This document shows positions 9,217 to 18,996 of a stretch of DNA of 64,000 nucleotides, piece after piece. The DNA is from Pyrobaculum oguniense TE7 (lineage in GTDB: Archaea; Thermoproteota; Thermoprotei; Thermoproteales; Thermoproteaceae). Position 1 is the first letter of the stretch, and each line of letters begins with the position of its first letter. The notes beneath the pieces were generated by a model. The model was not told the origin of the DNA. It saw nothing but the letters and a program-made list of their open reading frames with translations, and searched no databases. The translations under genes and the position numbers were made by a program. The stretch lies in NCBI GenBank assembly GCA_000247545.1, contig CP003316.1, positions 653,233 through 717,232 on the forward strand. Direction: 5' to 3'.

Positions 9217-9843
9217 GTGCCCCTCGTCAAGATATGTGGAGTTGCTAATGTGGAAGACGCCGCGGCCCTTGACGGCTTAGTGGAGTACATCGGCTTCATA
9301 TTAGAGCCGTCGAGCCCCAGATCTGTTAAGCCAGAGGGGCTGGGGGCGTTGCGAGATGCCGTGAAGAAGAGCAGACCTGTCCTCGTGACCGCGTCTTTGC
9401 CGCCAAAAACAGCCGTCGATATAGCCGCCGAGAACGACATCCCCGTGGTACAACACCACTCACTACTCGCGCCTGAGGACTTCGACTACGCCAACTCCCG
9501 CGGAGTGGCGGTGGCCCCCGTGGCTACCTACAGACCCGGCGTTGAGCTGAGGTCGCTGGTCGAGAGGCTTTTGAAAACCCCCCACGAGTACGTGCTGGTA
9601 GACGCCGACAAGAAGAGCCAGGAGAGGTACGAGGGCGGGTTGAAAATCCCCCTGGCCCTCTTGGCGGAGGTGGCGCCTCTCGGAAAGGTGGCGCTGGCCG
9701 GCGGCATCACGCCGGAGAACGCCCCGCTGGTCGCCAAGCTCAACCCCTACATGATAGACGTCGCCAGCGGCGTGGAGGCGAGCCCCGGCGTTAAAGACAT
9801 GGCCAAGGTCAGAGCACTGCTAAAAGCAGTCGGGAGGCTCTAG
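9217..9843 (+). CDS. trpF: Phosphoribosylanthranilate isomerase
   Basis: TrpF performs the Amadori rearrangement of phosphoribosylanthranilate, the step after TrpD. The 208-residue TIM barrel begins VKICGV with the catalytic Cys at about residue 7. It continues with [24 protein letters not shown] and [13 protein letters not shown] for phosphate binding, and ends [15 protein letters not shown]. The start is GTG at 9217. It is on the opposite strand from, and 3 kb away from, the trp operon, so the pathway genes are split. No trpC is present in the window. Confidence 0.92.
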
Positions 9844-9893
9844 CAACAAGGCGAAGCGCAACGGCCGCTCCGGGTAGTAGGCGGGAGCCGCCG

Positions 9894-11073
9894 TTACGAC
9901 GCGCCCCGTAGCTGTAGCAGGAACTTGGGAATTTCCTCCCGCCTTAGCACCGCCACGTCTCTTGGGTAGCCCCTCCTGGACCTCGCGCTTTTCATCTCTA
10001 TCTTGTAGGGCCCCGCCACCACGTCTATCTCCGTCTTGTTTCTGTAGTAGTACACCTCCCCGTACTTTCTAAGCAGGTGTTCCTGCACCACCTGCTCCAG
10101 CAACGCCGCCTCGTCGACCCTCCGCGAAGTCCAAAGAGCAGCGGCGCGGTATAGGAGGGGGTCTCTGAAGAAGATCTTCTTCTCCCTCCTCGTCTGCGGC
10201 TTCCCGCCGGAGATGAGGTGCGCCACCCCCACTGCGTATATGTCGGCGAGGAACTCCACGTACTCCCTCACGGTGTTGTGGGAGACCCCCACCTCCTGAG
10301 CCACTGCGTGGTATGACATAGGCGACGGGATCTTCTCAAGGACGGCGCCTAGGATGTCTTTGAGGAGCTGGGGGCTCCTCCCGTGTCTATACGTCTCGGA
10401 AACCGCCGCGTCTCTGACCGCGTCCACGGCGTCGGGGTGTCTGTTTATCGCCTTGGGGAAGCCGCCGGTCTCCAAGTACTCCTCGAAGAGTTGCGCCACG
10501 GCGGCCGGCTCCCTTGGGTCTACGCCGTGGACCTCGACATACGCTGGGAAGTCCAGGGGGAGGACCACCACGTCTCTGCCCAGCCCCCGCCTCCCGGGGA
10601 AGCGCTCCGGAGTCTTCAAAAGCCCAACCGTGGAGGAGCCCGTGGCCACCACCACTGCCCTGTCCAACACGCCGGTGTCGACGTAGTACTTCAACACCCT
10701 CCACCACCCCCTAACCGAAGTCACCTCGTCGAGCAAGAGATAAAGCCTCTTGACGCCACGTCTAGCCTCCCTCCCCACCACGTACTCAAAAGCGCGCTTC
10801 AGCTCAGCCGGCGACAGCACAATGTCTAGGTCCAGATACGCCACCGAGTCCGGCCCAGCCCTCCTCAGCAACTCCCTCACTAACAGCTTAAGCCCAGTGG
10901 TCTTGCCGGTCTGCCTAGGGCCGTAGACGAAATTCAAGGCAGACGGGTCGAGGCCCAGCTATCCACCCGGGCACCCACCTCACCCTCTCCCCCTGCCACT
11001 GCCTCAAGTGCTTATCCTCGTCCTCCCAGCTGGGCGAAAACCACCAGGAGTTCAACCGGTCCACCACGTCCAT
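9894..11073 (-). pseudogene. Archaeal AAA+ ATPase with C-terminal nuclease-like domain, frameshifted near the N-terminus
   Basis: A continuous frame from 10937 to 9894 encodes FVYGPRQTGKTTG (Walker A), YLLLDEV (Walker B), VATGSS (sensor), a DUF4143-like winged helix, and a C-terminal TEIDVV...EMKS strand typical of PD-(D/E)XK folds. The first ~38 codons lie in another frame: ATG at 11071-11073 gives MDVVDRLNSWWF...VRWVPGWI, and one extra base (or two missing) near 10959 shifts the frame just before the P-loop. Such ATPases normally begin with this WWFSPSW...D.HLRQW segment. Either the gene is inactivated, or there is a sequencing error, or the protein starts internally at a TTG at 10937. The function of the family is not settled. 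Confidence 0.75.
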
Positions 11074-11090
11074 TGTCACTAAACTGACAA
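11073..11090. promoter_or_regulatory. Operator-like palindrome overlapping the ATPase start codon
   Basis: TTGTCA-N6-TGACAA, a perfect 6-bp inverted repeat that touches the ATG of the ATPase gene. It is a copy of the palindrome at 11106-11123, with centres 33 bp (about three helical turns) apart, and the two flank the A/T-rich TATA region near 11094-11104. Confidence 0.55.
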
Positions 11091-11105
11091 CAGCTTAAAA
11101 AATTC

Positions 11106-11123
11106 TTGTCAGCATACTGACAA
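11106..11123. promoter_or_regulatory. Second operator-like palindrome upstream of the ATPase
   Basis: TTGTCAG-N4-CTGACAA, a perfect 7-bp inverted repeat upstream of the TATA region. Together with the site at 11073-11090 it brackets the core promoter, as expected for a repressor acting on a leaderless gene. Which protein binds is unknown. Confidence 0.55.
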
Positions 11124-11129
11124 TCAAAG

Positions 11130-11565
11130 GCGAGGACAGTACATATCCCAACAGCGGGGGTTCCCAAAGCGACCTGGCGTTAACCACCTTTCCACAAAGC
11201 TACCTGAGGATCATACAAGCTGCTTCTAATCCGCTTTTAACGTATTGCTGGCTACAAGGGGGCTAAGCCCAGGACAGACACCTTCCCGGGAAGGAAAGCC
11301 TTTATGTTGGCAGAATTCTCTTCTCATTGGCAAACAGCTTCGCCAACAGATTCAGAGGTGTCGTTGACGGCATTCCCGTAAGCCCTTAAGTAGTCGGACA
11401 CTCTCCTTTGAGAAAGGGGTTTCCCCAGAGCTAAATAAGGCAAGGCCATGACGCAGAGTTGTCTCGGCAGGTGGAGGTCGAGACAGCAACAGGTAGAGAA
11501 CCTTGTGGTATTTTCTCGTCGGAGAAAGCGTTTGCGGAGTCGCCTGAGCTAATACGCCAATAATA
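11130..11565. other. Degraded stretch without an intact gene
   Basis: About 440 bp with no convincing start-to-stop gene on either strand. On the minus strand, short open pieces such as SDYLRAYGNAVND appear in changing frames, which suggests old coding DNA that has decayed. No RNA gene or repeat was recognised. Confidence 0.4.
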
Positions 11566-12031
11566 TTCTTGACCTCCGCTGTCTCCTACGTGTGCCAACA
11601 TCTCCCTAACGAAGCCGAGAAGTTTCTCCACGTCCGACTCCACATCCTCTATGTCTGATAATCTACAAAATTGGGGTCGAAGCCGTTGTGTGCAAATCTG
11701 TGAAGCCCCAGGGCGATTCTCGCCGCGTGCTCAACCCCCTTAAAACCCAAGGCCTCCAGATCTTTTGCGATTTTCAGCAGGCCTTTGCCGGGGCGGCGTA
11801 ACCCACCTTCATACACCACTCCCGCCTCCTCTCACCTCTGGCCAAGTCCTCAAGCCTCGACACCACCAATGCGCTTGCCAAGGCCTTAAAAGCCATAAAA
11901 GCCCTATCCGCCGCGTTTTGGTAAAGCCCGCGCTTAAGCATCTCCTCAGCCAACTCGGCCTCGACCGCCGCCTCGAGGACGTGTGCAGCGACGTACTCCC
12001 TACTTTTAGCGTCGAGATGTCCCTCCACAAG
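11566..12031 (-). pseudogene. PaREP1 family protein, broken by at least two frameshifts
   Basis: On the minus strand, piece one (from about 12028) reads YVAAHVLEAAVEAELAEEML and then a FKALASALVV helix. Piece two, in another frame (about 11800-11660), reads GLLKIAKDLEALGFKG and HRFAHNGFDPNFVDY. Piece three, in a third frame (about 11655-11570), reads DIEDVESDVEKLLGFV. Joined, these form a helical HEPN-like protein of the PaREP1 family, which is multicopy in Pyrobaculum. Shifts lie near 11785 and 11655. The original start is uncertain. The family is often thought to be part of toxin-antitoxin-like or mobile gene sets; that is inference. Confidence 0.65.
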
Positions 12032-12313
12032 TCGTTGCCGGCTTCGTCAATAAAAGTGTTTAGACGCGTCGACTACAAGCGCCGCTCAACCCTAACATAT
12101 AGGCCGCGACGGCAGAGGGGGCTTGATATGCCCAAGCCCGGCGCCGGCAAGGCCCCCGTGGCGAGTGGTGTTGAGCGAGCCGCTTCAGCCTCCACGCGCC
12201 GCCTTGCAACCGCGGCGGTCGGCCCCGCCCCTCCGGCGCCTTGACCTCCAGCAACGTTTCCCTAGAGAAACAAGTGTATCCAAAGCTTTAAAGCTGTGAG
12301 TCCTTGAAGTGCC

Positions 12314-12727
12314 ATGCGTCTTATAGTGGTAGTGGTTCTCATATCGCTTGTCGTTGCGGTTTTGGCATTCCAATTACAATACGCCAAGACTGCGATCGAG
12401 GTAAAGACGGGGAGTTGGAGTTACGAAATCACAAAAGCAGAGGCTAAAAACACTGGACATGGCAGAGGTGTATGCCTGCCTCAAAACGTCACAGTTTCCT
12501 ACACAGAGAACTCCGTCACGGTAGTGATGTACGGTTGCCAGCGCGTGCTTGTAGACATCACGATAAGAAGCAAGGCGACGGTCCCGCTGTGCCTAATCTC
12601 AAAGGGGGCAGCCGAAGGGCCAGGCAAAATACCCCTTGCCATCGGAGCGACGAAAACGGTCAATTACGTATTCCACACAAACGACACCCTTACCTTCGGG
12701 AGACAGATCGGCGACTGCGGTCGATAA
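12314..12727 (+). CDS. Membrane-anchored secreted protein near the pilus locus
   Basis: Unrecognised 137-residue protein. An N-terminal hydrophobic helix (VVVVLISLVVAVLAF) acts as signal or anchor, and the rest looks like an extracytoplasmic beta domain with four cysteines (VCLPQ, YGCQR, PLCLI, GDCGR) that could form two disulfides. The TATA-like GCTTTAAAGC at 12283-12292 lies about 25 bp above ATG 12314. Its 3' end overlaps the convergent signal peptidase gene by 38 bp. Position suggests, but does not prove, that it belongs with the pilus genes. Confidence 0.65.
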   Translation: MRLIVVVVLISLVVAVLAFQLQYAKTAIEVKTGSWSYEITKAEAKNTGHGRGVCLPQNVTVSYTENSVTVVMYGCQRVLVDITIRSKATVPLCLISKGAAEGPGKIPLAIGATKTVNYVFHTNDTLTFGRQIGDCGR

Positions 12728-13787
12728 GTTTCTTCACGGCGACCTCCAGAAACGCCGCCGTCAAGAGCAGTGTTGTCAGATAAGGCCACCCGTTTACCGG
12801 GTCCCTAGCCCACAAGACGATCCACCCAGCATATGGGATTTTTAAAATGGCCTTACCGACTAGGTTGTCCTGCGGCACTGGCTTTGGATCTGGCGATTCG
12901 TTGGCGTCTCCCTTCGTCCTGTAGTACCAGCGGCCGTCTTCGCCCCTATACTTGTCGATGATTCTGTGGAGAACGTAGCCGATATCCGCCCTAAACAGGA
13001 CTACATCTCCCACCGAGGCCTCCTTCACAGGTACTACAAACACCACGTCACCAATGTTGTACACAGGCGCCATGCTGCCAGAGGCGATTACATAAGGCCT
13101 AACCCCAAATGCCCCCACGGCAAAGGCGACAAGCATAACTATCGAGAGCACAGCGACTACCTCCCCCCGGCTTATGGGAGCCGGCGACGCGTCGAGATAA
13201 ACTGCTAGTAAGAACAGCGCATGAACCAATCCGTAGAGAACCCAAGGCATCTTGAGGGCGACTGGCACGACGTATGGCACAACCCCGTAGGCGAGGGCCA
13301 GGGGGATAGAGACGAAGACCCCATACCTAACCTGCAAGAAGGAGGAGGCGGCCGAAACTGCTAGAGAGGGGAGTAGGTCCGTCCCCACCCACTGCGGCGA
13401 CGGCCGTAGCCAACTGTCGTTGAAGGCGTAGGCTACAGACACCAGCCAGACCCACCACTCCCCCCTTTTCAGGCCCAGGGCCGCGAAGCGGGAAAACTCC
13501 CTGGCCAGCACAAACAGCGTTAAGTACACCCCATTCCACACAGCAGCCGTTACCGAAGCGGCGTAGGGGCTCCTCTCAAACCCGTAGACGAAGCCCAGCC
13601 CCCACACCACGGCCAAATAAGCCGCCGCGTATAGAGACCCGGGAGATAGCCCCCCGCCCCAGGCGTACCTGGCAAAAAACAGCGCCAAGACCCCCCAAAC
13701 CGGCGTAAAAAACCACGCCTCGACCTTAAGGTACTGTTGCAGAAACTGCAAGAGGGGGACTACAAGCCACAGCCAGCGCGGATCCAC
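12690..13787 (-). CDS. Signal peptidase I (SipW/ER type) with long N-terminal membrane domain
   Basis: The 365-residue protein has about six hydrophobic segments (residues 5-225) followed by an S26 peptidase domain. The catalytic serine is S238 in IASGSM. VGDVVLFR follows near 259-266, the archaeal/ER-type histidine is H274 in VLHRII, and TKGDAN near 291-296 completes the motifs. A histidine in place of the bacterial lysine marks the SipW/Sec11 type. I chose GTG 13785-13787, two bases past the preceding gene's stop codon; the longer frame would overlap that gene. It follows two TasA/AbpA-like subunit genes and one membrane protein on the same strand, so it is probably the dedicated peptidase of that fibre, as SipW is for TasA. 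Confidence 0.85.
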   Translation of the reverse strand: MDPRWLWLVVPLLQFLQQYLKVEAWFFTPVWGVLALFFARYAWGGGLSPGSLYAAAYLAVVWGLGFVYGFERSPYAASVTAAVWNGVYLTLFVLAREFSRFAALGLKRGEWWVWLVSVAYAFNDSWLRPSPQWVGTDLLPSLAVSAASSFLQVRYGVFVSIPLALAYGVVPYVVPVALKMPWVLYGLVHALFLLAVYLDASPAPISRGEVVAVLSIVMLVAFAVGAFGVRPYVIASGSMAPVYNIGDVVFVVPVKEASVGDVVLFRADIGYVLHRIIDKYRGEDGRWYYRTKGDANESPDPKPVPQDNLVGKAILKIPYAGWIVLWARDPVNGWPYLTTLLLTAAFLEVAVKKLIDRSRRSVSRR

Positions 13788-13788
13788 A

Positions 13789-14598
13789 CTACTCCTCCAC
13801 CACAGAGAAGGACGCCCCCCTCCTCCTGCGCCATGCATAAAAGGCGCCGGCAACTCCGGCGGCCACTCCCACCGCCAACGAGGCATAGAGGGCGATTGCG
13901 TTGGGGCCCAGGACAGCCAACCTATCCCTCTCGGCCCTCAGCGCCGCCAACTCCCCCCTCAAGGCGCTGATCTGCCCACTCAATTCTTTAACCCGTTCGT
14001 CGCAGTCCCTACGGACGGCGGCCAGCGCCGAGGACAGGTTGTAAACCCTCCCCAAAAGCACAGAGGCGTTGTACGCCTCAGCCCGCCAAGAACCGCCACG
14101 CAGAGGCAAGCCCGACATCACTGCGGGTTGAAACGCCGTGACCACCACATCGCCCCTCACCCGAACCGGCCTATCCGAAGAAAGCAGAGAAACCGTCTGC
14201 CTCCCAGACAGCGCCACCACGCTCACCCCCTCCTCGAACAACATAGCCGACCTCACCCCGCCGACACCCAGCACTGCGGACGTCGCCTCGGAGCACACAA
14301 ACACGGCGTAGGTCACGTCAAGCGCCACGCTGTAGAAGTGAAAGACCTCGCATCCCCCCGCGGGAGCCCCAACCACGACGAAGACATCCCCCACCACGTC
14401 CACCGGCAGGGAGAAATTACCCACGACAACTTTCAAAACCCAGCCATGCGGCACGTAAAGAGAAATAGGCGCAAAAGCCCTCCCCTCAGCCAAGAGCAAC
14501 GAGCCGTTATACATCCTGACATCGCCGCCGTAGGATATAACAGTGACGCTCCAGCCAAACGAAAAAACCACTAACAACAAGGACAAAAGCAATCTCAT
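13789..14598 (-). CDS. Secreted protein with C-terminal coiled coil and membrane anchor
   Basis: No family was recognised. From ATG 14598 the 269-residue product has a signal peptide (LLLSLLLVVFSFGWS), then about 170 residues of predicted beta structure with two cysteines (GGCEVF, FVCSE). A coiled coil follows (RDCDERVKELSGQISALRG), then one membrane helix (ALYASLAVGVAAGVAGAFYAW) and a basic tail RRRRG. This type I topology would hold a domain outside the cell on a stalk. A TATA-like TTTTTTAAG about 23 bp above supports ATG 14598 over 14613. The signal peptidase gene follows after one base. It may anchor or nucleate the pilus; this is inferred from context only. Confidence 0.7.
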   Translation of the reverse strand: MRLLLSLLLVVFSFGWSVTVISYGGDVRMYNGSLLLAEGRAFAPISLYVPHGWVLKVVVGNFSLPVDVVGDVFVVVGAPAGGCEVFHFYSVALDVTYAVFVCSEATSAVLGVGGVRSAMLFEEGVSVVALSGRQTVSLLSSDRPVRVRGDVVVTAFQPAVMSGLPLRGGSWRAEAYNASVLLGRVYNLSSALAAVRRDCDERVKELSGQISALRGELAALRAERDRLAVLGPNAIALYASLAVGVAAGVAGAFYAWRRRRGASFSVVEE

Positions 14599-14626
14599 AG
14601 AAAAAAGCGGCAACGCTCTTAAAAAA

Positions 14627-15202
14627 CTATCCTACGTACTGTTCGTATATACACGTAAACGTGGCTGTGCCGGAGACCTCCTCTCTGGCATCATCTTTTG
14701 CGTGGAGATATATCACGACGTCGGCCGTGCCACCGGGATTTAGAACAAACGGTGGATATGAACCGCCGACATCAGCATCGACGTCGACACGGATGTCGAA
14801 GTCGTAGTCTACATCCATGTAGAAGCCGCCGCCGAGACTCGTAAAATCACAGCCATAGACCCGGACGGGTATTGTGCCGTCGTTCCTAAGCAGAGCCCTC
14901 AGGGTCACGTAGGCGCCTGGGTACATATTAGCCACGTCTATTACGAGCTCGGGCGGCCCATCATTGCCTGCGCCAGAATTAACAACCGTCACGCCGACCG
15001 TCATGTAATTCACTACCACGTAGTCTGACGGTGGACTGAACACGTAGGTTGTAGGCAATGTTAGTCTAACGTTTATGAAGTCTGCGTCTATGTATCCTGT
15101 ATCGGCGTTTACTTGTATAGTGGCTTCCTCGGTCCACGTGGCGAACGCCACCCCGAGTATTACCGCCAGCGATACAAACACCACGACAGCCTTTCCCTGC
15201 AT
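14627..15202 (-). CDS. AbpA/TasA/camelysin-like pilus subunit, longer paralogue
   Basis: The 191-residue product starts with a signal peptide ending AFA, followed by the mature N-terminus TWTEEATIQVNADTGYIDADF-like strand also found in the next gene. TasA/camelysin-type fibres use such an N-terminal strand for donor-strand exchange between subunits. It carries the DGTIPVRVYGC loop and a final TCIYEQ, so two cysteines can bridge. It resembles the archaeal bundling pilin AbpA described in Pyrobaculum calidifontis (family knowledge). Being longer than its neighbour and less repetitive, it could be a minor or cap subunit. A TATA-like run about 25 bp upstream gives it its own promoter. Confidence 0.75.
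   Translation of the reverse strand: MQGKAVVVFVSLAVILGVAFATWTEEATIQVNADTGYIDADFINVRLTLPTTYVFSPPSDYVVVNYMTVGVTVVNSGAGNDGPPELVIDVANMYPGAYVTLRALLRNDGTIPVRVYGCDFTSLGGGFYMDVDYDFDIRVDVDADVGGSYPPFVLNPGGTADVVIYLHAKDDAREEVSGTATFTCIYEQYVG
15076..15171. repeat. 96-bp direct repeat, copy 1 (pilus subunit 5' region)
   Basis: This segment matches 15732-15827 at 95 of 96 positions by eye. It encodes the end of the signal peptide and the N-terminal strand of both pilus subunits, while the remaining parts of the two genes differ strongly. Confidence 0.8.
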
Positions 15203-15369
15203 GGTCCTAAGGACATACTTAACATAAAAAACCTAACGAAACACCTGTTGCAAAAAAGAAACAATATATAAAATACAATACACAAAGAAATAATGAAAAT
15301 CTAAAAAGTAGAAAAGTAAAAAGGGACAGGCGAAAAAAGGGGGTGTTGTTTATGTGGTGTGGCCTATTA
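15203..15369 (-). terminator. A/T-rich gap with oligo-T terminator below the main pilus subunit
   Basis: Read on the minus strand, the 167 bp after the stop of the 162-aa subunit gene contain several T runs (T6 around 15334-15340 and T5 around 15317-15321). They are followed by the promoter of the next gene. This fits strong termination after an abundant mRNA. Confidence 0.4.
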
Positions 15370-15858
15370 TTACGGAACGTCTTGCTCGTAGGTGCACTGG
15401 ATAGTCACGTCGTAGGTATCCTCCTCATCCACGGCTCCAGCAGTTATGGTCAACGTAACGGACTCGGAGTCACCTATAGCCAACGTGAACGGAGTACTGG
15501 GGAGGCCGGAGACTGTGAGCATGCCCGTGTCGCCCGACGCAGAACAGCTGGTGAATTCGATGGGGATGGTGCCGTCGTTGTATATCTCAAAGTACACCTC
15601 TACCTGGGCGCCGGGGTAGGCGTTTGATATACTCACCGTCAGCGAAGGTGCACCGTCGTTCCCAGAATCCGATCCGCTTGCTGTAGCCGAAGCACTAACA
15701 TATGGTGAAGTACTGGTAACCACAACGCTTGTGAAGTCTGCGTCTATGTATCCTGTAGCGGCGTTTACTTGTATAGTGGCTTCCTCGGTCCACGTGGCGA
15801 ACGCCACCCCGAGTATTACCGCCAGCGCCGCTATTACTAGTGTTGTTTTGGTTTTCAT
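15370..15858 (-). CDS. abpA: Archaeal bundling pilus subunit (AbpA/TasA-like)
   Basis: Product of 162 residues: signal peptide VIAALAVILGVAFA, then TWTEEATIQVNAATGYIDADF-type N-terminal strand, then a Ser/Thr/Gly-rich beta sandwich with DGTIPIEFTSC and a C-terminal IQCTYEQ, giving one likely disulfide. Length and composition match the TasA-related archaeal bundling pilin AbpA, which polymerises by donor-strand complementation and bundles cells in biofilms (known for Pyrobaculum calidifontis). The 5' part is nearly identical in DNA to the neighbouring paralogue. A TTTTATAAGC box at 15879-15889 is about 25 bp above ATG. The symbol is by resemblance. Confidence 0.78.
   Translation of the reverse strand: MKTKTTLVIAALAVILGVAFATWTEEATIQVNAATGYIDADFTSVVVTSTSPYVSASATASGSDSGNDGAPSLTVSISNAYPGAQVEVYFEIYNDGTIPIEFTSCSASGDTGMLTVSGLPSTPFTLAIGDSESVTLTITAGAVDEEDTYDVTIQCTYEQDVP
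15732..15827. repeat. 96-bp direct repeat, copy 2 (pilus subunit 5' region)
   Basis: Second copy of the segment at 15076-15171, with one difference that changes Asp to Ala in the N-terminal strand. It lies in the 162-aa subunit gene. Confidence 0.8.
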
Positions 15859-15878
15859 GAGTTCCCAGACTCTTCGCT

Positions 15879-15889
15879 TATAAAATCCT
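15879..15889 (-). promoter_or_regulatory. TATA box of the pilus subunit gene
   Basis: TTTTATAAGC on the minus strand, about 25 bp above ATG 15858. No operator-like repeat was seen close by. Confidence 0.5.
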
Positions 15890-16125
15890 TGCCCAACAGC
15901 CGTTGCTTATTGGAAACAGCTGTGTACAACGTTTTGCGAAGCCGCGGCGTCTGGATAGGCGACGTGGCGGTAGCCGCTGTTAGCTCTTGGCTGGTTTGTC
16001 CAGCGCCGGGCGGCGGCTTTGGCCATTTGGGGTGTCTAGTATTTCCGGGGTGCGTACCCTGGGCCGGGGGCGGGTTGTTGCGGTGTTTGTTAAAACGGCG
16101 GCTGGGCTCTGCCTTGGTGGAAAGA

Positions 16126-16404
16126 TTATGTGTGGTTTAGATATTGGCGTAGCCAGGCGTATCGCTCGGATAGTTTTATGATCATTACACGGGGTCCTGG
16201 CCTGTATATCTCCACTACTCCCTTCCTCTGAAGGGCGTCTATGTACTTGTACAGTGTCTTGGGGGCTACCTCGCTTCTCCTTGCAAGCTCGCGGAGAGTG
16301 AGGCCCTCGGACCTGCTCAGTGTCTTGATAATCCTCCACATAACGCTGTCGTTAAAGACGTGGTTTAGAAAATGAAGAAACTTGTGTAAGTCGTTAGTAT
16401 CCAT
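16126..16404 (-). CDS. Winged-helix transcription regulator of the pilus locus
   Basis: A 92-residue DNA-binding protein. Residues 20-75 form a winged helix: MWRIIKTLSRSEGLTLRELA as helices 1-2, RRSEVAPKTLYKYIDALQRK as the recognition helix, then a VVEIYRPGPRVMIIKL wing. The family is MarR/ArsR-like. Its own TATA element (ATTATATATA) lies about 20-28 bp above ATG. It is the first gene upstream of the pilus subunit on the same strand, making it the likely switch for fibre production. No ligand-binding domain is present. Confidence 0.75.
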   Translation of the reverse strand: MDTNDLHKFLHFLNHVFNDSVMWRIIKTLSRSEGLTLRELARRSEVAPKTLYKYIDALQRKGVVEIYRPGPRVMIIKLSERYAWLRQYLNHT

Positions 16405-16476
16405 ATTCGTATTGGGGGTGGTATATATAATTTTTGCTCTGTATAAACTTTAGGTTTGTAATCTTAACAGTTGTTA

Positions 16477-16641
16477 CTATTTAGAAACATCGGTAGTAGC
16501 GTTGGCTAGCTGGTAGATCTTGACTTCCAGATCAACCTTCAGCTTTTGGAGACAAAATGGGCACTGGGCTGTTGGATCTTCTGTTATGAATTTTTTGCCA
16601 CAGTTTGGACACCTAATCCACAGCCGATACTTAACCAGCAT
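16477..16641 (-). CDS. Small zinc-ribbon protein (54 aa)
   Basis: An overlooked short gene: ATG at 16639-16641, stop at 16477-16479. The protein begins MLVKYRLWIRCPNCGKKF and contains CPNC at 11-14 and CPFC at 27-30, two knuckles 12 residues apart that can bind one zinc, followed by a hydrophilic tail. A TATAAAT box lies 25 bp above the ATG, so it is probably expressed as a leaderless mRNA. It lies upstream of the winged-helix regulator on the same strand. It may be a DNA- or RNA-binding accessory factor; nothing more can be said. Confidence 0.7.
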   Translation of the reverse strand: MLVKYRLWIRCPNCGKKFITEDPTAQCPFCLQKLKVDLEVKIYQLANATTDVSK

Positions 16642-16818
16642 GTGCTTTACACTGTCTTGATTTATAAGACTATTGTTATACTACCACATACCTAATTTTC
16701 ATTTGGAAACATCTGTTTCCAAGTCCTGCGTGTTAGCGGATGGCTTGAGGCAGGTCCGCTACCGGCGCCGTGGCCGTGTATACTGGTCGCCCAGATAATC
16801 TATGCTTCTAGTCCTCAT

Positions 16819-17040
16819 TTATGTAGCGGCGTCTCCTCCTCGCTGTGTTACATAAGTGCGTTTGGGCAGGGGGGCGTCCCACTCTAGTATGTACTCGCGG
16901 GCGTCTGCTATAAATCTTGCTTGTCTCGTTGCCGCCTTCAGCTGGCTGTATGCACCTGCCAGCTTCCACTGGCTGTGTCTAATTCTTCTGGTCGTCAGCA
17001 AGACTCTGCCCTCTTTATTGTTAACGTATACGTAAAACAC
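16819..17040 (-). CDS. Small conserved-looking hypothetical protein
   Basis: Unrecognised basic protein of 73 residues (FYVYVNNKEGRVLLTTRR...). The N-terminal strand pattern FYVYV followed by a basic helix could bind nucleic acid. It starts with GTG at 17040. A GATATAAAAC box about 25 bp above fits a leaderless transcript and is the main argument that the gene is real. Confidence 0.5.
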   Translation of the reverse strand: MFYVYVNNKEGRVLLTTRRIRHSQWKLAGAYSQLKAATRQARFIADAREYILEWDAPLPKRTYVTQRGGDAAT

Positions 17041-17091
17041 AGGTAAAGAGTTGCGGAGTGTTTTATATCTATCAGGTAAAATGTCCTTGGA

Positions 17092-17406
17092 CTATGAGGT
17101 GATGCCTATGGCGAATAGGAACTGGCGGAGGGCCTCGCCGTCGGGCGGCCTCTGGGTATTTACGAAGTGGCTCAGCGCCAGGGTGATGAAGGCCTCCCAC
17201 TGCTCGTCGTCTATCTCCGCGGTTACGGCGCCTACTTCCAGCATGTTGCCGCGCCTCCTGGCCTCGAAGTCGCCTATTTTTAGGTAGTCGCTCTGCACCA
17301 CCAGCTCGACGCCGAGCCTCTTCGCCGCGGCGGAGGCGTGGCTGAGTATAAGCGATGTGGAGTCCTCGCCGAACCTGCGCTTGTCCCTCGGGTCTATCAC
17401 CGCCAC
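17092..17406 (-). CDS. Hypothetical protein (104 aa)
   Basis: No family recognised. The sequence has a strand-helix pattern (LGVELVVQSDYLKIGDFEAR, then VGAVTAEIDDEQWEAFITLA) and ends in a hydrophobic tail. The start is GTG at 17406. It shares the A/T-rich element at 17424-17434 with the divergent HEPN gene, so the two may be co-regulated. Confidence 0.6.
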   Translation of the reverse strand: MAVIDPRDKRRFGEDSTSLILSHASAAAKRLGVELVVQSDYLKIGDFEARRRGNMLEVGAVTAEIDDEQWEAFITLALSHFVNTQRPPDGEALRQFLFAIGITS

Positions 17407-17423
17407 CGGGGCTTAGGATTGGC

Positions 17424-17434
17424 CATTTTTAAAC
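17424..17434. promoter_or_regulatory. Shared TATA element of two divergent genes
   Basis: ATTTTTAAAC-type sequence lying about 20-25 bp from the GTG at 17451 (plus) and about 20 bp from the GTG at 17406 (minus). The element is nearly symmetric, so it could serve both directions. Confidence 0.45.
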
Positions 17435-17450
17435 AAAGTTGCCCTCTGAC

Positions 17451-18328
17451 GTGGACGCGTTGCAGAGGTTGAGGAGGCAACTGGAGCTGATTAGGGCCTA
17501 CGCGGCGGAGCTGGGGGAGGAGCGTAGCTCCCCCGGGGTGGAGCGCCTTGAGCAGTTGATAATCCAGGCGTTGCTCGACCTCGGCGCAATGGCCCCCTCG
17601 GCGCTGGGGGCACCGCCTGCCCGGAGCTACGGCCAAATAGGCTACGAGTTGTACAGACGCGGCGCGTTGTCGAAGGAGGACGCGGCCGTTCTGAGGGCTA
17701 TGGCGGGGCTGAGGAACATCCACGTACACGGATACGCGGCGGTGGAGCCGGAGAAGGTGGTGGAGTGCTCCAAGCGGGTTGGGCAAGACGCCTTGAGAAT
17801 AGCCGAGGCGATCATAAGCGCGCTGGAGGGACGGGGCATCAACCCGCTTGAGGAAGAGGCAGTTGCGAAGATTAGGGACGTGCTGAGGGGAAGGGTGAGG
17901 TTGGCCTACCTCTTCGGGGGAGGGCCAAGGGGTACAGCCTCAAGGGGGACTACGACGTCGCAGTGTACGTGGAGGGCGGTTGCGACCTTTACGAGCTCGG
18001 CCTAATCCAGGTGGACCTCTCGGAGGCTTTGGGGGATGAGCGGGACGTGGTGTGCCTCAACTCGGCGCCGCCGGACATGGTCCTGGAGGCGCTCCCCGGC
18101 GTCCCCGTAATAGACGACCCGGCGCTGAGGGCGGAGCTCTACGCGAGGGCGCTTGCTGAGCTAAACGACGTGGAGATAACCACAAGACGCGCCTACCGGC
18201 GGTGGCGCCTCGCCGCGGCCCACTCCTCCTCTGCGTCTACGCAACGGGCTCCCACCTTGGCGCATATATCCTCCACGGCCTTCTTGACGCGGGCCCACCA
18301 ATCTTCCGAGACTTCCACCTTCCTGTAA
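17451..18328 (+). pseudogene. HEPN-nucleotidyltransferase fusion, frameshifted in the catalytic motif
   Basis: Frame one, up to about 17920, encodes a DUF86-type HEPN domain (HepT-like toxin family) with the RNase motif RNIHVHGY near residue 90. At the G5 run 17916-17920 the frame changes. With one more G the text would read LFGGRAKGYSLKGDYDVAVYV, the MNT-type minimal nucleotidyltransferase core (G-[GS]...DxD), which is then open to 18328. HepT and MntA are normally separate partners: MntA AMPylates and silences HepT. Here they are in line in one gene. The last ~45 codons run antisense into the radical SAM gene and are probably not native. Real inactivation, slippage or sequencing error are all possible. 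Confidence 0.75.
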
Positions 18329-18996
18329 TTTGCCGCTAGGCGGGCGTCGGCCATGGGTCTCGGCCTGTACTTGTCGTAGATCAGCTCGGCGCCCGTTGAG
18401 TGGGCCACCCTCACCACCTCCTCGATGTCTTGGGGGGAGTCGTTGAACCCGGGGATTATGGGCCCCATGAAGATCCACACCCTCACCCCCTCGGCGGCTA
18501 GCTTCTCCACTGCCCTTGCCCTGGCGAGGGGGTGGGCGGCCATGGGCTCCAGAATCCTGGCCTTATCCCTCAGAGTGGTTATGGTGATGCCCACGTCTAC
18601 CATTTCCCTGTACCTCTTGAGGACGTCCAAGTCGCGGACGACCATGCCGGATTTGGTCTGCACCGAGACGTGGAATCCCGCCTCTGCCAGCACCTCAATG
18701 GCTCCGCGGGACAGCTTGTAGAAGGCCTCTGGGGGCTGGTAGGGGTCGGTAATTGTGGAGAGGCCCACGACGCCGGGCTTTAGGCGCCTCACCTCTCTCC
18801 TAAGCACCTCCAGGAGGTTAGCCTTTACGTACACGACGCTTCCCCACATCTTGCCGGGGGGGCCCTTGGTGTAGTCTATGGCGTAGCAGTAGTGGCAGCC
18901 GTGGAGGCACCCCACATAGGGGTTGAGGGCGTAGTCGTACTCGGGGAGGCCGGACGGCGAAAGCGCCCTCTGCACCCTAATCTCGTAGACCTTCAC
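18193..18996 (-). CDS. Radical SAM protein, SplB-like (COG1533)
   Basis: The 267-residue protein begins with YDYALNPYVGC and the Cx3Cx2C cluster C30, C34, C37 (CLHGCHYC), which binds the 4Fe-4S cluster that cleaves S-adenosylmethionine. Barrel elements VGLSTITDPYQPPE, VSVQTKSGMVVRD and FMGPIIPGFNDS follow. This matches the COG1533 group related to spore photoproduct lyase, common in archaea and without a proven reaction. The 3' end overlaps the frameshifted HEPN-nucleotidyltransferase frame by 136 bp in convergent orientation. Confidence 0.85.
   Translation of the reverse strand: MKVYEIRVQRALSPSGLPEYDYALNPYVGCLHGCHYCYAIDYTKGPPGKMWGSVVYVKANLLEVLRREVRRLKPGVVGLSTITDPYQPPEAFYKLSRGAIEVLAEAGFHVSVQTKSGMVVRDLDVLKRYREMVDVGITITTLRDKARILEPMAAHPLARARAVEKLAAEGVRVWIFMGPIIPGFNDSPQDIEEVVRVAHSTGAELIYDKYRPRPMADARLAANYRKVEVSEDWWARVKKAVEDICAKVGARCVDAEEEWAAARRHRR

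Follow-up and report, generated by a model that had tools for sequence, protein, structure and literature searches.

A TasA/AbpX-type pilin cassette with a dedicated signal peptidase, probably an accessory fibre system, in Pyrobaculum oguniense TE7

A stretch of 64,000 nucleotides from Pyrobaculum oguniense TE7 (contig CP003316.1, positions 653,233 to 717,232; hereafter the window) contains a cassette of genes which, in our assessment, quite probably builds an accessory fibre of the TasA/AbpX donor-strand type, with mixed pilins, a dedicated signal peptidase (SPase) and a membrane partner. The cassette is real and represents a variant of the TasA/AbpX kind. A sequence-only reading had proposed five genes here on the minus strand, encoding a helix-turn-helix (HTH) protein, two pilins, a membrane protein and a SPase, and all five were found in their places. 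Taken as a whole, that reading is partly supported: the pilin type, the dedicated SPase and the linkage of the membrane protein, here named TMcc, hold, whereas the likeness to the P. calidifontis bundling-pilus locus and the gene order do not. The five genes are more than chance open reading frames (ORFs), as their matches to protein families and to AbpX, the identity between the two pilins and the conservation of the cassette indicate: both pilins, TMcc and the SPase are kept as one cassette in two relatives of the same genus, G009 and G002 (G000 is the P. oguniense TE7 genome, other G numbers are compared genomes, and L numbers are compared loci). The features of the cassette are as follows, in coordinates of the window.

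16126..16404, minus strand: winged-HTH regulator, 92 aa (Pfam HTH_24, E 3.8e-8)
15878..15885, minus strand: TATA-like box TTTTATAA, 20-27 nt upstream of the abpA1 start, read by eye
15370..15858, minus strand: abpA1, AbpX-type pilin of 162 aa (phmmer to AbpX 9sj2, E 2.3e-9, and 9rhp, E 1.2e-7)
15732..15827, minus strand: abpA1 copy of a shared 96-nt segment encoding the end of the signal peptide, the cleavage site AFA|TW and the donor strand
15203..15369, minus strand: T-rich gap of 167 nt 3' of abpA1, a putative terminator plus second promoter, judged from sequence
14627..15202, minus strand: abpA2, second AbpX-type pilin of 191 aa, 46% identical to abpA1
15076..15171, minus strand: abpA2 copy of the shared 96-nt segment
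13789..14598, minus strand: TMcc, coiled-coil membrane protein; ATG 14598 is a likelier start than TTG 14613 (ORF 13789-14613)
12690..13787, minus strand: endoplasmic reticulum (ER)-type signal peptidase I, 365 aa, GTG start (TIGR02228, E 6.1e-26)
12314..12727, plus strand: third AbpA-like small secreted protein of 137 aa; its gene converges on that of the SPase and overlaps the 3' end of the latter

By sequence homology, the two pilins belong with AbpX, whose fibre structure has been solved (PDB 9sj2 and 9rhp). A profile of 12 AbpA1 relatives (A1) matches AbpX with an E-value of 1.8e-17, and the homology of AbpA1 to AbpX covers the donor strand. The solved AbpX chain 9sj2 has a tryptophan at residue 2, which is aligned with W23 of AbpA1, so mature AbpA1 would start with T-W after A-F-A. 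AbpA2 matches the A1 profile at E 2.7e-71, but is itself a row of that profile. The pilins score 15.7 and 14.3 bits against Peptidase_M73/TasA (PF12389), below its curated cut-off of 22.5, and this family gave no match at E<=0.001 in the P. oguniense genome. AbpA1 is the probable major subunit; in its mature form it has no lysine or arginine and 20 aspartate or glutamate residues. Two cysteines are conserved in all six Pyrobaculum pilins of the alignment and could form a disulfide. It is very unlikely that the pilins form no fibre and are secreted in soluble form or bound to the S-layer: they match Ig-like domain profiles weakly and the cassette of this organism is known from its genes, but the homology to a solved fibre subunit includes the donor strand, and a like cassette stands beside AbpX.

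AbpX is attributed to Pyrodictium abyssi, a source that rests on PMC11952670 and on a 100% match in G253. The gene following AbpX in G253 encodes a SPase with the same polytopic N-terminal part as that of P. oguniense. The two loci thus share pilin homology, including the donor strand, and a long SPase as the next gene; they differ in that the AbpX locus has one pilin, with no TMcc, DUF5305 or HTH gene detected in the 19.5-kb stretch of G253, whereas P. oguniense has two pilins, TMcc, the HTH gene and the third AbpA-like gene.

The SPase scores 91.2 bits against the archaeal ER-type family TIGR02228 (cut-off 51.85), which places it in that family, and neither Ser238 nor His274 varies among the 17 SPases that were aligned. 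Together with the AbpX homology, this supports the earlier claim that pilins of the TasA/AbpX type are served here by an ER-type SPase of their own, with a Ser-His active site. Against the SipW equivalog NF046067 the enzyme scores 60.1 bits, below the cut-off of 190. The peptidase domain, from about residue 209, is preceded by a polytopic domain (~1-208, about 205 residues rather than the ~225 first proposed), in which G65, E97, R100, G156 and P175 are invariant in the same 17 proteins. This N-terminal part had been described as unusual; it is a hallmark of such cassettes, being present in the 17 aligned SPases and also beside the AbpX gene. Pfam searches of the 17 long SPases returned S26 and S24 for the catalytic part only, with no family recurring in the N-terminal domain. 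A relationship of this domain to CPBP proteases was considered and dropped, as its ExxR spacing differs from that of the CPBP motif.

The P. oguniense genome has a second, ordinary SPase I, the housekeeping enzyme (G000:C1:2331847). An extra SPase I is found in exactly those genomes of the genus that have AbpX-type pilins (4/4 against 0/7); six of the seven others have one SPase, and G007, which is 74% complete, has none. G004 gives three SPase rows, two of which are neighbouring pieces.

Pilins of the same locus are, at the level of sequence, specifically matched at the cleavage site and the donor strand. The comparison comprised 50 pilins from 24 loci, 18 of which have at least two pilins, giving 36 within-locus and 1189 between-locus pairs. 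Entry to the set required a tryptophan after the hydrophobic stretch, while spacing was no entry condition; with Trp at P2', P1 is A/G/S and P3 is A/T/V/S/G/I in all 50 pilins. The 14-residue donor strand shows an identity of 0.61 within loci against 0.38 between them, compared with 0.32 for the within-locus remainder, and it is more alike than the remainder in 35 of the 36 pairs. The within-locus value was reached in 0 of 2000 shuffles, which ignore relatedness; this was therefore addressed by sliding windows of 14 columns along the pilins. The excess of within-locus over between-locus identity is 0.23-0.29 over residues 13-38, compared with 0.12-0.18 over residues 1-22, 0.14 at 29-42, and 0.01-0.08 in every window from residue 33 onwards. 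In abpA1 and abpA2, the shared segment is identical at 95 of 96 nt, against 177 of 393 nt for the codons outside 12-42. This tract looks like a gene conversion confined to the cleavage site and donor strand, and apparently a recent one, since in the orthologous pilin pairs no more than 46/90 nt (G009) and 50/90 nt (G002) agree there in any of five ungapped offsets.

The shared plug ends of pilins of one set suggest joint assembly, and one donor strand per locus would then be a sequence signature that predicts co-polymerising subunits. We regard it as unlikely that this 5' matching results from gene conversion or SPase recognition only, with the pilins forming separate fibres. It is true that the 96-nt tract resembles one recent conversion, that the identity peak includes signal-peptide residues 13-21 and that abpA1 may be transcribed on its own; however, in a set with 18 multi-pilin loci the excess extends past the cleavage site and covers the donor strand up to about residue 38. 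Moreover, PMC10151520 reports that the first residues (AFNDI/AFHDI) are common to TasA and TapA in B. subtilis and that the TapA strand complements TasA.

TMcc consists of a signal/transmembrane (TM) helix, a beta-rich ectodomain, a coiled coil (about 195-233), a TM helix (about 236-257) and a short basic tail. Homologues were found in two of 60 other genomes, G009 (52%) and G002 (51%), in both cases beside AbpA and SPase genes, so that the proposed co-occurrence with AbpA genes is observed in all three genomes having TMcc among the 61 searched. Cassettes other than the TMcc type carry DUF5305 (PF17231), which occurs in 42 of 398 genomes of the phylum. The DUF5305 cassettes of Thermoproteota share with that of P. 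oguniense the pilins, the long SPase and a two-TM membrane protein with an ectodomain. In contrast to DUF5305 proteins, TMcc has no match to the family at E<=1, has no C-terminal domain after the second TM helix, and is encoded before the SPase, not after it. The possibility that TMcc is a diverged DUF5305 was rejected: a weak hhalign stretch obtained with 4 DUF5305 rows (11%) was gone with 37 rows (0.4%). A search for DUF5305 in a limited collection of papers found none.

From the 42 DUF5305 regions, two without a DUF5305 ORF and seven picked by pilin or SPase matches were left out. A SPase gene lies within 3 kb of 22 of the remaining 33 DUF5305 genes, and an AbpA-like gene within 8 kb of 16; for the 20 genes with at least 5 kb on both sides, the counts are 17 and 13, respectively. 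These regions include 13 long SPases, 12 of them with AbpA-like genes nearby and the thirteenth (L134) at a contig end. AbpA-like genes are near three of the nine short SPases, where divergent pilins may escape detection because the pilin profile was built from long-type loci. In G029, G030 and G042, SPase and DUF5305 are fused in one protein of 516-528 aa. A serious, if somewhat doubtful, alternative to a role as fibre anchors is that TMcc and DUF5305 are partners of the SPase, acting as substrate receptors or regulators. The fusions, the single base between the TMcc stop and the SPase start, and the closeness of SPase genes to 22 of the 33 DUF5305 genes, whose regions were selected on DUF5305 only, all favour it. 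This linkage is, however, not exclusive, as 16 of the 33 also lie near pilin genes.

The fusion genes (L070:6138-7691, L071:6913-8499 and L072:4633-6183) have no recognised pilin nearby, and for two of the three the next gene encodes a product of roughly 200 aa that is hydrophobic near its N-terminus. In two further genomes, G238 (L215) and G314 (L217), the SPase is followed by a protein that has two TM helices but does not match DUF5305, and beside the SPases of G253 (L214) and G113 (L216) no membrane partner was recognised. Some cassettes (L111, L114, L136, L139 and L066) also encode a large donor-strand protein that is AbpA-like and 411-502 aa long, a candidate tip or adhesin.

The sequence-only reading had likened the locus to the bundling-pilus locus of P. 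calidifontis. We compared it with PDB 7UEG, which we take to be the bundling pilin of that species and whose chain is identical to an ORF of G010. No homology to the pilins of the window was detectable (hhalign 5.6%), and 7UEG is absent from the A1 profile matches at E<=1. The 7UEG locus has no SPase in its neighbourhood, and its genome has one SPase I only. The true counterpart in P. oguniense lies outside the window: a 7UEG-type pilin of 70% identity is encoded at G000:C1:80963-81583 (L196), and its neighbours resemble those of the 7UEG locus in G010. It is therefore extremely unlikely that the cassette encodes a P. calidifontis-type bundling pilus, although both systems have secreted pilins and occur in the same genus, and although PMC10151520 reports that ABP resembles TasA in structure. 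The 7UEG type is matched in 11 of 11 genomes of the genus, whereas AbpX-type pilins are present in four (G000, G002, G004 and G009); the weak match in G006 (E 0.037) has no pilin-like ORF on the matching strand. As judged from this distribution, the cassette is probably a second, accessory pilus system of P. oguniense.

From the genes, we infer the following mechanism. AbpA1 and AbpA2 would be exported by Sec and cut by the ER-type SPase of the cassette at A-F-A|T-W, freeing an N-terminal strand with Trp at P2' that would plug into the next subunit. Since they have cleavage site and donor strand in common, the two pilins are probably interchangeable in one mixed fibre. At the membrane, the precursor and the base of the fibre would be held by the polytopic part of the SPase together with TMcc, or with DUF5305 elsewhere. 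The third AbpA-like protein is a candidate for initiating or capping the fibre, and the HTH protein would control expression. In a bolder version, which we consider improbable, the polytopic SPase would itself serve as the platform for assembly, combining peptidase and usher in one protein and adding subunits from below. It would, with TMcc or DUF5305, keep the precursor in the membrane until the subunit at the fibre base is ready for the freed strand, and would cleave one residue before the anchoring Trp; each cassette would use a donor-strand and cleavage code of its own, which gene conversion would keep uniform across the pilins of that cassette. Most interest lies in the features common to the cassettes: the polytopic form of the SPase, the presence of DUF5305 or TMcc, and the matching of donor strands. 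Candidate membrane parts can now be named for the start, attachment and subunit choice of TasA/AbpX-type fibres, namely the polytopic domain and TMcc or DUF5305.

Several points weigh against an accessory donor-strand fibre of this kind. No fibre has been seen in P. oguniense. AbpA2 alone matches AbpX at E 0.0096 only. Single-sequence structure predictions were unusable for the SPase (predicted local distance difference test, pLDDT, 44) and for TMcc (pLDDT 53; helix at 175-265, blocks within 201-270 at pLDDT 65-94). Neither a DUF5305 nor a TMcc gene was found beside AbpX in G253, hence the membrane partner is not universal. Because the donor strands adjoin the cleavage region, recognition by the SPase or simple gene conversion, and not co-assembly, could account for their matching. 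PMC10269814 reports that the E. coli SPase, a P-type enzyme, is hindered by an aromatic residue at P2', and that the ER-type SipW cuts TasA. Nevertheless, a Trp in this position does not necessarily call for a dedicated enzyme, because the effect is reported for a P-type SPase and archaeal housekeeping SPases are ER-type.

The Bacillus tapA-sipW-tasA operon also has a dedicated ER-type SPase and several donor-strand proteins, with an aromatic P2' residue and near-identical TasA and TapA N-termini. Its gene order, which the cassette had been said to mirror, is different, and the P. oguniense proteins fall below the cut-offs of Peptidase_M73 and SipW NF046067. We know of no Bacillus counterpart of TMcc or of the polytopic SPase domain.

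The third AbpA-like gene was missed by the first reading. Convergent copies of 40-43% identity lie beside the SPase in G009 and G002, and its product combines a signal peptide with a strand that ends in TG and with a TVP motif resembling the TIP of the pilins. The A1 pilin profile finds the G002 copy at E 0.02. Homology to the pilins is likely, but not proven, since the hhalign match to the pilin profile falls from 94% with signal peptides to 26% (E 7e-4) without them. Identification as TapA (TIGR04087) was rejected: the third gene has no match at E<=1, and the G002 copy reaches only 13.1 bits against an equivalog cut-off of 80. The protein is a candidate minor or initiating subunit.

With regard to gene starts and transcription, a SPase ORF of 398 aa would overlap the TMcc gene by 98 bp, while GTG 13787, one base past the TMcc stop and preceded by GGAGG, gives 365 aa. 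The TATA-like box upstream and the T-rich gap downstream suggest that abpA1 may form its own transcription unit and abpA2-TMcc-SPase another. Relatives of the HTH gene adjoin abp genes in G009, G002, G004 and G011. Rfam and tRNA scans of the window found none.

The cassette of the window has trpF on one side and a radical-SAM gene on the other, as do those of G002 and G004, and in all three gene g17092 (window 17092-17406) stands next to it. It is of the TMcc type in G002 and of the DUF5305 type in G004, whereas in G006 the genes g9894, g17092 and radical-SAM follow one another with no cassette. The cassette looks exchangeable, as empty, TMcc-type and DUF5305-type states are found at one site in the genus; that of G009 is at another place. 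The interval from trpF to the radical-SAM gene (window 9217-18996) is a variable site within the genus.

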